Source of the DNA: Thiothrix unzii
GTDB lineage: Bacteria > Pseudomonadota > Gammaproteobacteria > Thiotrichales > Thiotrichaceae
DNA: 64,000 bases
Reading direction: 5' to 3'
Assembly: GCF_017901175.1 (NCBI RefSeq)
Contig: NZ_CP072793.1
Coordinates: 992,001 to 1,056,000, forward strand
Within the stretch, counting starts at the first letter, position 1; each line of letters begins with the position of its first letter. The notes below the pieces were generated by a model. It did not search any database, was not told where the DNA came from, and worked only from the letters and a program-made list of their open reading frames with translations. Shown piece by piece: positions 50,202-59,367 of the stretch. The position numbers and the translations under genes are program-made.

Positions 50202-50230
50202 GGCTATACTCCTTCTCGTAAATGAAGATG

Positions 50231-50246
50231 CCAATATAGTACCAAT
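50231..50246. promoter_or_regulatory. Shared promoter element, lectin-operon copy
   Basis: CCAATATAGTACCAAT, 30 bp upstream of the lectin ATG; identical over 16 bp to 50871-50886. On the minus strand it includes TACTAT/TATATT, possible -10 hexamers, so a bound protein would block the promoter. Confidence 0.6.
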
Positions 50247-50307
50247 TATGTATTTTGGTAAATATCAAAATTTAGGCAAGTCGCCTCGTGATTTGAATTG
50301 TTATGCT

Positions 50308-50826
50308 CTATGAGCGAAGCTTACTAATGATCGTGCTAATGCCTTGCGCACCCAACGCACAATAAAAACCGATGCCTATCTCAATGAGCGTAATGGCAAT
50401 ATTGATCTTGATTTCCCATGAATTGCCTGAGATCTCCAGATGGTTGCTTATTGCCCAAAATATCAAAGCGTTGTGAAAAAGGTCAGGAATCGTCCATGTC
50501 AGGATGTAAATACCAATAATGGCAATCCCGGCTATCTGGATAGCCTGCCCCTTTTCTTCCAGTAAGGGGGAATCAGAGCGCAGATTTCCCACCAAAGATC
50601 TCGCTAATAAGGTGGGAAACTTGAGCATCAGAAACGCAATCAATGCCATCGCCGTGAATATGGCATACTGGATGTACGTAATGTAGGTGTCACTTTCGGG
50701 TACTGGTCTGTCTGGGCTAATGATCGCCAATGCTTGAAGCCAATAAGGTAGACTTTCCAGCATACGAATGAGTAATAGAACTCCCAAAATCCGAATGGCA
50801 ACAGCTAGCACTTCAATGATTTTCAT
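50308..50826 (-). CDS. Small four-helix membrane protein, unknown
   Basis: 172 residues with four hydrophobic segments (about 5-22, 50-70, 97-118 and 142-165); no family recognised. An acidic/polar loop follows helix 1. Upstream is a perfect 11-bp inverted repeat containing the element also found before the lectin operon, implying shared control. Confidence 0.65.
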   Translation of the reverse strand: MKIIEVLAVAIRILGVLLLIRMLESLPYWLQALAIISPDRPVPESDTYITYIQYAIFTAMALIAFLMLKFPTLLARSLVGNLRSDSPLLEEKGQAIQIAGIAIIGIYILTWTIPDLFHNALIFWAISNHLEISGNSWEIKINIAITLIEIGIGFYCALGAQGISTIISKLRS

Positions 50827-50866: not shown

Positions 50867-50895
50867 AATTCCAATATAGTACCAATATTGGAATT
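50867..50895. promoter_or_regulatory. Shared promoter element, perfect inverted repeat copy
   Basis: AATTCCAATAT and ATATTGGAATT, an exact 11-bp inverted repeat with 7-bp spacer AGTACCA. It contains the 16-bp CCAATATAGTACCAAT also seen at 50231. A strong candidate operator for an unidentified regulator. Confidence 0.7.
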
Positions 50896-51020
50896 TGCAA
50901 ATAGAAAAATATCGCTAGAAACCCTTTTCCTCCAACACGAAGCCATAAAAAAATCGCCGGGTGATGTTCAAATTCAACTAAAATTGCGCTGTCTGGGTTA
51001 TGGAGGGAGTAGCAAATAGT

Positions 51021-52931
51021 ATGGTGGATGTGTTTGTGCTGGGCAGTTATGTGAATGCCAATAGTCTTGTGGTTAAACAGTTGCCGAAAGCAGGGGAGTC
51101 ATTGCAAGCTGAAGCTTTGTGGACGGAGCATGGCGGCAAGGGGTTGAATCTGGCTGTCGGGATGCATCGTCTGGGCTTACGGACTTACCCGCTGATTGCG
51201 GTCGGCAACGACACGCCGGGTGATGCATTGATGACCTTGCTGCGGTCTGAAGGTCTTGAGATACAAGGCGTTGTGCGCACTTCCATCCCTTCCGGTTTTG
51301 GTGTTGGTTTGGTAACAGCCGCTGGTGACAATATCATTACCATCTATCCGGGGGCGAACGCCCAACTGAGTATTGGTCACGTTCAGACTGCCAGTAATAC
51401 CTTGCAAGATTGCCGCTTGGTGTGCGCCCAGTTTGAAATTCCTGATGCACCGATTGTGGAAGCATTTAAGCAAGCGCGGCAACGCGGCATCAAAACCTTG
51501 CTGAATCCCTCGCCTTGGCGTGAACCTGAAACGGTGCTGCTTTCCCTGACGGATATATTGGTACTCAACGAAACAGAAGCAGCAGCTTGTTTTGGTATTA
51601 CTGATGTGGACACACTCTCACTTGCCCAGTGGTTGCGCTTGTTACCGGTGTTAGCATGGAAAGGGGAGTTGCTGGTGGTGACGTTGGCGGAACGTGGTTG
51701 TGTGGCATTACAGCGTGGGCAGGAAGCAATGCACGAACCTGCTTGGACAATTGAGCCTGTTGACCCAACAGGAGCAGGGGATGCGTTTGCCACAGGACTG
51801 GCTTATGCTTTGCTGAACGATTATCCATTAGTTAAAGCATTACGCTTTGCCAATGCTTGTGGGGCTATGATTGCATCCCAGCAAGGGGTGTTGCAGATTT
51901 TGCCAACCTGGCAGCAAGTTGGGCAGTTTATGGGGGATTGTCAGCGTAATCGTGATATTCACCCGCTGATGCTTGAGGTTATGGGGAATACCAAAAGCAT
52001 GATGGAGCAATTCGGATTACATGATCTTGCCAGTGAGAATCTGGAGGCTTTGCGTCGGTTTCAGCGTGCGTGTTGTCCGGCATCTGAGAACTTGCCGTTT
52101 GTCTGTTGTGTAGAGGATCATCACATACCCACTAAAGCTGGTACGTTGGCAATCAGGTTATACAAACCGAGCCTGCAACCGAATTTACCCATGCTAGTTT
52201 GGTTTCATGGAGGTGGGTGGGTCATGGGGGGCTTGGATAGTGCAGAATGGCTATGCCGTTCTTTGGCAAATCGTGTGGGTTGCGCAGTAGTGTCCATCGA
52301 CTATCGGCTTGCACCTGAATATCCTTTTCCGTGTGCTTTGGACGATGGTTTGACCGTTGTGCAATGGTTGGAAACCGCAGCGTCTGATTTGGGTTTGGAC
52401 AGGGGCAGGATGGCGGTTGGAGGGGATAGTGCTGGCGGGAATTTAGCGGCCTGTATGACGCATCAGTTACAAAATTCGAGAAATAAGCCTTTATTCCAGC
52501 TTTTGCTGTACCCCTCATTAGATGCTGATTTTACCCGTGTTTCGTATCAGGAAAATGCTCAAGGAGGGATTCTGACAAGTGCAGTGATGCGGCGATTTTG
52601 GGATTGTTATGTGCCAGACCGATCGCAGCGTTGCAGGAGTGATATTTCACCGCTTTATGCCAAGACCTTTGCTGCATTGCCACCCGCGTTGATTATTACA
52701 GCAGAATTTGACCCATTGCGTGATGAGGCTGAGGTGTATGCACTTATGATGCAAGTGGCGGGTGTTAATGCCCGATCATACTGTGCTAAAGGTATGATCC
52801 ATGATTTTTTAGCATTTCCTTCAAGTACTGATCTGGCGGTGGTTACTACTGTATGGCGTGAAATTGTATCGGCATTACAGCAGGTTTTTGGTATTACGAG
52901 TGCTGCGGTTAAGGTTGCATCTTCAACGTAA
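51021..52931 (+). CDS. PfkB-family sugar kinase fused to HSL-type alpha/beta-hydrolase
   Basis: 636 residues joining two enzymes. N-terminal kinase (about 1-300) of ribokinase type: VFVLGSYVNANSLV, GGKGLNLAVGMHRLG, and the anion-hole/catalytic motif DPTGAGDAFATG (catalytic Asp254). C-terminal esterase (about 325-630) of the hormone-sensitive-lipase family: HGGGWVMGG oxyanion motif, GDSAGGN with Ser470, Asp564 in EFDPLRDE and His594 in GMIHDF. Both active sites look complete. ATG 51021 is preferred (GGAGGGAG upstream, kinase fold starts here); ATG 51000 is the alternative. The substrate could be an acylated sugar or nucleoside. Its 3' end overlaps the convergent GntR gene by 23 bp. Confidence 0.88.
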   Translation: MVDVFVLGSYVNANSLVVKQLPKAGESLQAEALWTEHGGKGLNLAVGMHRLGLRTYPLIAVGNDTPGDALMTLLRSEGLEIQGVVRTSIPSGFGVGLVTAAGDNIITIYPGANAQLSIGHVQTASNTLQDCRLVCAQFEIPDAPIVEAFKQARQRGIKTLLNPSPWREPETVLLSLTDILVLNETEAAACFGITDVDTLSLAQWLRLLPVLAWKGELLVVTLAERGCVALQRGQEAMHEPAWTIEPVDPTGAGDAFATGLAYALLNDYPLVKALRFANACGAMIASQQGVLQILPTWQQVGQFMGDCQRNRDIHPLMLEVMGNTKSMMEQFGLHDLASENLEALRRFQRACCPASENLPFVCCVEDHHIPTKAGTLAIRLYKPSLQPNLPMLVWFHGGGWVMGGLDSAEWLCRSLANRVGCAVVSIDYRLAPEYPFPCALDDGLTVVQWLETAASDLGLDRGRMAVGGDSAGGNLAACMTHQLQNSRNKPLFQLLLYPSLDADFTRVSYQENAQGGILTSAVMRRFWDCYVPDRSQRCRSDISPLYAKTFAALPPALIITAEFDPLRDEAEVYALMMQVAGVNARSYCAKGMIHDFLAFPSSTDLAVVTTVWREIVSALQQVFGITSAAVKVASST

Positions 52932-53724
52932 TCCGATACGTATACGCATCCCCACGGAATGTCCCTTCCACGTATTCAACCATTTGCCCGTTAGTGGCGT
53001 AAGTTTTCCGTTTCAGCAACAAGCAGGGGCTAGGTTCTAGGAAACCAAAAACAGCCATTTCATCCTCGTTGCTCATCGCGGCTTCTATGGTTTGTTCCCC
53101 ATGATCGAGTGCGATGCTGCAGCGTTGTTGTAAAAACTGGTATGCAGAACCCTCAATATCCCATTCCGCCAAAGCAGGTGCAATGGTCAGGTCGTACCAA
53201 GCCACTTCCCGCGTCATGGGGATTCCATCACCAAGGCGTAAGCGCACCAGTTTTAAAAAGCGTGCGGTAGACGGGCGGTTAAAAACAGAGGCAATGGTGC
53301 GATCAGAAACGATACGCCGTTCCAGCAATTGCGTGGATGGTTCGACCCCGATTTCACGCATTTCTTCGGTGAAACCTTTGAGTTTGCCTAGTTCCGGGTT
53401 AATTCGTGGCGGGGCTTTAACCATGACACCGGCACGCCCGTGGGTGCTGATGTAATCTTGCTCGCGTAACTCATCGTAGCAACGACGCACGGTGGTGCGG
53501 CTTAGTTTTAACGCTTCTGCCAACACGCGTTCTGAAGGCAGGCTATCACCGTCGTTTAATTCACCCGCTTCGATCATTTGAATAATCTGGCGTTGCAGTT
53601 GGAGGTACAAGGGTTCCGCAATCCCAGCATCGGGTTTTAAACGTCCAATGAAGGCTCGACTGTCGTTAACTGCTTGTGATGGCAGCGAGTTGGTATTTAA
53701 GGTTGCGTAGGATGTCTGCCCCAT
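52909..53724 (-). CDS. GntR-family regulator with UTRA domain (HutC subfamily)
   Basis: 271 residues. After a nonconserved 35-residue leader comes the winged helix: PLYLQLQRQIIQMIEAGEL, LPSERVLAEALKLSRTTVRR, REQDYISTHGRAGVMV; then a UTRA ligand domain (about 110-265) with LVRLRLGDGIPMTRE. HutC-type regulators sense sugars, amino acids or phosphates. It faces the kinase-esterase gene tail to tail and might respond to its substrate, but this is inference. Confidence 0.9.
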   Translation of the reverse strand: MGQTSYATLNTNSLPSQAVNDSRAFIGRLKPDAGIAEPLYLQLQRQIIQMIEAGELNDGDSLPSERVLAEALKLSRTTVRRCYDELREQDYISTHGRAGVMVKAPPRINPELGKLKGFTEEMREIGVEPSTQLLERRIVSDRTIASVFNRPSTARFLKLVRLRLGDGIPMTREVAWYDLTIAPALAEWDIEGSAYQFLQQRCSIALDHGEQTIEAAMSNEDEMAVFGFLEPSPCLLLKRKTYATNGQMVEYVEGTFRGDAYTYRITLKMQP

Positions 53725-58442: not shown

Positions 58443-58907
58443 TTATTCAACGATGAACAGCGGCTGCCCGAATTCGACAGGTTGTTCGTTCTCAACCAAA
58501 ATGGCTTTGATGACACCGGATACATCGGATTGAATCTGGTTGAGCATTTTCATTGCTTCGATAATGCACAGGGTGTCGCCAACTTTGACGCTTTGCCCGA
58601 CTTCAGCAAAGGGTTTAGCGGTTGGCGAAGAGGCGCGGTAAAACGTGCCAACCATTGGCGATTCGACCACGTGGCCTGACGGTGCGGCGGCGGCAGTGTG
58701 AACTTCTGCTGCTGGTGCGGCGGCAACAGGTGCGGCGTGACCAACAGGTGGTGGTGTGTAGAAGTGCTGTGGCGCGGCATTGGTCATCATGCCGGAATTC
58801 AGGCGGCTAATGCGCACGGAATCTTCGCCTTCTTTGATTTCGATTTCGGCAACATCGCTGCCTTCGAGTAACTGGATGAGTTTTTGTATTTTACGCACGT
58901 CCATCAT
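58443..58907 (-). CDS. accB: Biotin carboxyl carrier protein of acetyl-CoA carboxylase
   Basis: 154 residues. N-terminal helical tip [15 protein letters not shown], Ala/Pro-rich linker (about 50-80), and a biotinyl domain with the biotin Lys in [11 protein letters not shown] plus the thumb segment [11 protein letters not shown]. Overlaps the aroQ 3' end by 17 bp; accC follows after 35 bp. Confidence 0.97.
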
Positions 58908-59367
58908 GGGGTAACGCCTTTGTCATGTTTGTTGAGGTTTTCTGTATAGCGGCATACAGTGCAAGTTCATAACCTACGGCTCCTAAGCCTAGAATCACGC
59001 CTTCAGCAATATCGGAAAGATACGAATGGTGGCGGAAAGATTCGCGGCGGTGCACGTTGGATAAATGGATTTCAATAAAGGGTATAGCAACGCCTAGCAG
59101 CGCATCTCGCAATGCAATGCTGGTGTGTGTATAAGCACCGGGATTGATGATAATGAATTCGACACCTTCATCCATTGCCAAATGAATGCGGTCAACCAAA
59201 GCCCCTTCCGTGTTGTTCTGGTAACAAAGCAGGGTTTGCCCCCGTTCTGTTGCGAGTGCAGTAAGGTTTGACTCGATTTGTGGCAGGCTTAGGCTACCGT
59301 AGTGTCCGGGTTCACGCTTTCCCAAGAGGTTAAGGTTTGGCCCGTTTAGCAAGAGGATAGTCGCCAT
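58891..59367 (-). CDS. aroQ: Type II 3-dehydroquinate dehydratase
   Basis: Third step of the shikimate pathway, 158 residues. [13 protein letters not shown] near the N-terminus (active-site Tyr in the HYGS block), [17 protein letters not shown] and [11 protein letters not shown] are all typical. ATG 59367 (GGGCGGA upstream) chosen over a TTG two codons before. Confidence 0.97.

Follow-up and report, generated by a model that had tools for sequence, protein, structure and literature searches.

In the fusions of PfkB kinases with aldolases (models NF041633 and NF047869), the two partners share a pathway. The same is described for the eukaryotic PsuG-PsuK fusions (PMC9247573). The chimera described here, encoded in the window (the whole 64,000-nucleotide stretch of Thiothrix unzii DNA that was analysed), resembles both groups in combining a PfkB kinase with a second enzyme, but differs from them in that no known pathway joins its two halves. 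That second enzyme is an HSL-type esterase, and the resulting kinase-esterase chimera is real, unusual and lineage-specific.

Both halves have known relatives. The nearest solved structures to the kinase half by sequence are the ribokinases 8cqx, 6znx, 4x8f and 1gqt, with which it shares a common family. Ribose is contacted in Escherichia coli RbsK by Asn14, Asp16, Gly42, Lys43, Asn46, Glu143 and Asp255 (PMC9604405), and in E. coli PsuK, too, the hydroxyls of ribose are bound by an Asp16 (PMC9247573). The esterase half has the HGGG, GDSAG, Asp and His elements of Est8 (4ypv), EstDL136 (6aae), Est2 (1evq) and LipP1, and shares the alpha/beta-hydrolase fold with Est8, Est2 and EstDL136 by model match, but unlike all of these its N-terminus is fused to a kinase.

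HSL esterases framed with another enzyme, as in the chimera, also occur in other Pseudomonadota: four loci (L100, L102, L103 and L104) encode an HSL esterase and an FMO-like domain in one frame, with the esterase first in L100 and last in the other three, and a fifth (L054) joins it to a Pyr_redox_2 domain. These cases come from five of the genomes examined, and in them the esterase is joined to a flavin-dependent oxidoreductase, not to a kinase; their existence suggests that HSL esterases tolerate fusion. One further open frame (L097:1296-2975, minus strand) contains TetR_N, TetR_C_29 and Abhydrolase_3 and is possibly a fusion of a TetR regulator with an esterase.

Two enzymes in one reading frame

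The fusion frame (51021-52931, plus strand) is uninterrupted and encodes 636 residues. An earlier ATG at 51000 would extend it to 643 residues (51000-52931), but the second ATG at 51021 agrees with the kinase starts of relatives, and GGAGGGAG ends 11 bases upstream of it. With numbering from 51000, Pfam places PF00294 at residues 10-303 (E 6.4e-49) and PF07859 at residues 399-604 (E 1.3e-66). Frame, Pfam matches and motifs thus bear out what the first-pass annotation had read from the letters, namely a single 636-residue chain with a complete PfkB kinase and a complete HSL esterase. The DPTGAGD motif that it named was recovered in the alignment with related kinases, the HGGG motif is present, and Ser470, Asp564 and His594 are where it had placed them.

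The kinase domain (51021..51935, plus strand; residues 1-305) was recognized by its Pfam match, and its end was placed by codon count against the stand-alone kinase of Thiothrix UBA5583, which leaves an uncertainty of a few codons there. It scored 167.4 bits against PF00294 (cut-off 25.8) and carries the GG and DxTGAGD motifs of PfkB carbohydrate kinases. The window kinase retains GGKGLN, NETEA and DPTGAGD, and GGKGLN and GAGD are kept in all 14 aligned kinases (the window and 13 relatives). By sequence, this half appears to be a working PfkB kinase. Like ribokinases it has GGKGxN, DxTGAGD and a glutamate (Glu139) at the position of RbsK Glu143, and all 14 subfamily members retain GGKGxN, the Glu and the catalytic Asp. 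Unlike RbsK, it scores under the curated cut-off of the ribokinase equivalog TIGR02152 (199.6 against 299.65 bits), and at the RbsK Asp16 position all 14 members have Asn (10) or His (4). The Asn14 position is also variable (N in six, H in four, S in three and Q in one), and the kinase half does not reproduce the RbsK set of ribose-contacting residues. Ribose is therefore a doubtful substrate for a subfamily that lacks Asp16, and the kinase probably acts on some other small molecule.

The inserted HSL family IV esterase segment (51936..52907, plus strand; residues 306-629) was recognized by PF07859, by its catalytic residues and by a fold model, and is esterase-like from about residue 312. Its score of 224.8 bits (cut-off 25) places it in the HSL/family IV group. 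It retains HGGG and GDSAG, and its HGG, GxSAG serine, Asp and His positions do not vary when seven other HSL esterases are aligned with it. Modelled alone, it adopts an alpha/beta-hydrolase fold with a mean pLDDT of 79.5 and Est8 (4ypv) as the best PDB match. In the prediction of the whole chimera the kinase half was mostly well predicted, the esterase half poorly, with few relatives in the alignment, and a helix was predicted with low confidence across the junction (297-330). The curated cut-off for the chloramphenicol hydrolase NF033149 is 500 bits, of which the segment reached 230.4. The best-scoring NCBIfam model, the LipP1 equivalog NF058653, gave 303.2 bits, below its curated cut-off of 350; we take this model to be named after HjEstP1. 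The latter enzyme (gene lipP1) is described as active on p-nitrophenyl esters with short chains (below C6) but poor on acetate (PMC11614938).

The insertion site and the history of the insert

The kinase is conserved in a minority of the family: 14 of 63 genomes carry it (the order-level set consists of the same 63 genomes), only the window's copy is fused, and the other 13 lie in frames of 306-340 residues. Within the genus it was found in 10 of 16 genomes, and since the remaining six are without it, it is dispensable there. The closest kinase is the stand-alone one of UBA5583, with 87% identity. In the kinase tree the window groups with UBA5583 as its sister (support 1.000), inside a set of unfused relatives, and the simplest history is a single insertion after these two lineages had split.

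The two loci are colinear on both sides, in the order OmpA-like, ricin-type lectin, kinase, GntR, tRNA-synthetase-like and DksA-like genes (where OmpA and DksA are names that we presume for these genes), and UBA5583 has no esterase at the locus. The right edge of the insert is sharp. From GTT at 52908 the window again matches the end of the UBA5583 kinase, in an ungapped stretch of 45 bases (42 identical) that continues into the GntR gene (GTTAAGGTTGCATCTTCAACGTAA in the window against GTTCAGGATTCATCTTCAACGTAA at the UBA5583 kinase end), and the ancestral last codons and stop thus now close the esterase. This remnant of the kinase C-terminus (52908..52931, plus strand) reads VKVASST* in the window and VQDSSST* in UBA5583. 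Codon counting places the insert after kinase codon 305 and before codon 306, ahead of the ancestral last seven codons and stop. Its left edge is less sharp, and its length is 963 or 972 bp depending on how residues 306-308 are counted, a multiple of three both ways. Two esterase homologues (L045 and L047) start and end near the ends of the insert, which suggests that a whole esterase was taken in. At the left junction TCAGCGTAATC resembles TCAACGTAATC at the right, a weak candidate for a target-site duplication, as an equal match arose in 533 of 20000 shuffles and in 310 of 9135 other stretches of the window.

An artefact of assembly or sequencing that joined two genes would fit a fusion carried by a single genome, but we regard it as very improbable. 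The source genome comprises 3.72 Mb in 8 contigs, and the locus lies on a contig of more than 3 Mb with both flanks colinear with the relative, which makes a chimeric contig a poor explanation; moreover, the ancestral tail retained behind the insert is what a real insertion leaves.

The best esterase homologues are 46-47% identical (398 phylum genomes, among the matches listed). Closer to the window, one genome of the genus (G010) has an HSL gene with 35% identity elsewhere in its genome and six others have weaker matches, while in the wider family HSL genes with 34-38% identity occur in G412, G421, G422, G426, G427 and G428. In G421 and G422 the kinase occurs as well, on contigs other than that of the HSL gene. 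None of these HSL genes of genus or family is the source of the 100% open insert at the kinase locus. Among viral contigs, a single-sequence esterase query found no relatives and an alignment-based query five distant ones (28-42% identity).

Third-position GC is 0.43 in the insert and 0.50 in the kinase, and the codon-usage score of the insert is the third lowest of 53 window frames of at least 150 codons (2 of the 52 others are as low), the reference for both tests being mechanical frames of the window only. The two lower-scoring frames are 58894-59367 and a 172-residue frame at 50308-50826; compared with 29 longer window frames the insert scored lowest. Together with a best homologue of 47% identity, the atypical codon usage makes the insert look horizontally acquired, and such an origin is likely on these sequence grounds. 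However, the ricin-type lectin gene, which is next in the ranking, scores nearly as low and is also present in UBA5583; atypical codon usage is common to the neighbours and so counts against a foreign-origin reading of the insert. No donor was found in the phylum set (398 genomes, matches listed), and 47% identity does not name a source.

Between the window and UBA5583, dN and dS of the kinase are 0.081 and 0.374 by NG86 (dN/dS 0.22) and 0.088 and 0.276 by YN00 (0.32), compared with 0.023 and 0.728 (NG86) and 0.023 and 0.518 (YN00) for the GntR gene. These values point to purifying selection on the kinase, weaker than that on its GntR neighbour. The branches leading to the sister kinases are similar (0.085 and 0.073), so that no relaxation or decay of the kinase after the fusion is visible.

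The convergent GntR/UTRA gene and the upstream element

As the first-pass annotation had noted, a GntR/UTRA regulator (52909..53724, minus strand; PF00392 and PF07702) faces the fusion; it is convergent, tail to tail, and overlaps the fusion frame by 23 bases. The regulator and the kinase thus share no promoter. At the insertion site the regulator acquired a new stop (window 52909-52920, minus strand) and is shorter by its last three residues, ending in LKMQP against LKMNPEQV in UBA5583.

Of the nineteen loci examined, one (L012) is the window's own and another five duplicate others, leaving 13 distinct related loci, two of them labelled Methylococcales. A GntR/UTRA homologue is convergent to a stand-alone kinase in all 13, with overlaps of 11-41 bases in 11 of them and gaps of 19 and 380 bases in the other two. 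More distant kinase homologues on two alphaproteobacterial plasmids, from Azospirillum and Methylobacterium, also adjoin a GntR-family gene, which is divergent there.

Upstream of the kinase lies the CCAATATAGTACCA element at 50871-50884 (plus strand), with a second occurrence at 50231-50244. The corresponding pattern, CCAATNTARTRCCA, has two matches in the whole genome, both at the kinase locus; it was found upstream of the kinase in eight of the nine other distinct loci of the genus (being absent in L006), and not in four loci outside the genus (L010, L011, L042 and L043). Inspection of these same upstream regions by eye had supplied the pattern, and with one mismatch two matches were also obtained in 10 of 100 window shuffles, so that the count in the window is weak evidence by itself and conservation the stronger part. 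We infer that the element is a candidate operator of the GntR/UTRA regulator, which would act on the kinase.

Both copies of the element lie within direct repeats (50228-50257 and 50868-50897, 83% alike) that flank the 172-residue frame mentioned above (50308-50826, minus strand). This frame has no Pfam match, has atypical codon usage and occurs in one of the 16 genus genomes; it probably represents another insertion specific to this lineage, located across the kinase from the esterase. UBA5583 in turn has an extra 175-residue frame (L005, 7791-8318, minus strand) between its GntR and tRNA-synthetase-like genes, a site at which the window has no frame of its own of at least 90 residues on that strand.

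Distribution and function of the chimera

Sequence searches with the fusion or its halves located the fusion in the window's genome only, within the sets searched, in which each species is represented by one genome. When the whole fusion was compared with genome contigs, every match at the seven loci obtained covered the kinase half only. No second fusion was seen in the 63 family genomes at E up to 1e-30, nor among the matches listed for the 369 genomes of the class at E up to 1e-70, where at most three candidates were scored per genome and a less similar kinase in a fusion could be missed. The same held among the matches listed for 398 genomes of the phylum with each half queried alone and at most five candidates scored per genome; here the kinase was found at E up to 1e-42 in eight genomes including its own, the other seven having frames of 307-375 residues. 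Among 50,697 phage records 69 matched, none over 80% of the fusion query, and among 72,556 plasmid records 1523 matched, with one place covering 80% of the query in the best 30 of these, which is not a fusion. This candidate, on a plasmid of Rhizobium jaguaris (81% of the query), consists of two separate genes that stand in reverse order with about 1.45 kb between them, and its kinase shares only 26% identity with that of the window. Long frames among part of the phylum esterase matches listed were also considered as kinase fusions and rejected: blastp of 15 of them against the kinase gave a best E of 0.42, PF00294 was found in none of the 10 that were scanned with Pfam, and one frame of 783 residues (L046) is, by eye, a spurious high-GC frame. 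Among the literature matches listed we found no paper on a kinase-esterase fusion and, judged by title, none on HSL fusions.

Nor was any esterase match found beside the kinase in the flanks of the 13 distinct related loci (about 5-6 kb a side for seven loci and about 1.5 kb a side for six). The first-pass annotation had named, as a finding that would refute its view, a fusion unique to this assembly with split genes in all close relatives. Uniqueness holds within the sets searched, but the relatives have no esterase at the locus rather than split genes.

We consider it about 75% probable that the protein is a chimera confined to one lineage, its two active sites working independently and its esterase having come under the kinase promoter. 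On this reading, a conserved ribokinase-like kinase gene in tail-to-tail overlap with the GntR/UTRA gene acquired an HSL-type esterase, in frame after kinase codon 305, in the window's Thiothrix lineage once it had split from UBA5583. Each half of the resulting 636-residue chimera retains its own active site. The kinase half may continue to phosphorylate its ancestral small substrate, which is probably not ribose; the esterase half, following a linker of only about six residues, may hydrolyse short-chain esters and would now be expressed from the kinase promoter. Both halves would be active, and the two reactions independent.

The first-pass annotation had instead proposed a bifunctional pathway enzyme, in which the esterase de-acylates an acyl-sugar or acyl-nucleoside and the adjacent kinase phosphorylates the product, all in one polypeptide. 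Such a role could draw on the two intact active sites, on the very short connection between the last helix of the kinase and the N-terminal region of the esterase (the low-confidence helix 297-330), and on the precedents of PfkB kinases fused to other enzymes, such as the kinase-aldolase models and the eukaryotic PsuG-PsuK proteins (PMC9247573). We nevertheless judge it unlikely, and the proposed order of de-acylation followed by phosphorylation found no support beyond the tether itself: all 13 distinct related loci have the kinase on its own, the esterase joined it through a single, apparently young event in one lineage, and neither recurrence of the fusion nor a partner gene neighbouring the kinase, as expected of a pathway-type fusion enzyme, was seen in the sets searched. 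Somewhat less probable still is a nearly neutral accident, in which the insertion persists only because kinase and overlapping regulator gene both stay unbroken, with the esterase carried along passively and bound to decay. It would account for a fusion present in one genome only and for the sparing of both overlapping genes except for the last residues of the regulator, but the 963-972 bp still form an open frame that has its catalytic residues. For a pure accident, it would be somewhat lucky that the insert is open, joins in frame on either side and is catalytically complete, which hints at selection.

The locus offers a clean example of a two-enzyme protein arising in one step, by in-frame insertion of an intact enzyme where another one ends; the ancestral tail can still be read beyond the insert, and an unfused sister genome allows comparison. 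The locus further draws attention to a kinase subfamily whose substrate is probably not ribose and which is adjoined by a GntR-family gene. If the pathway reading were true after all, this would be a new bifunctional deacylase-kinase that salvages an acylated sugar or nucleoside, a pairing without other example in the sets searched, seen soon after its origin.
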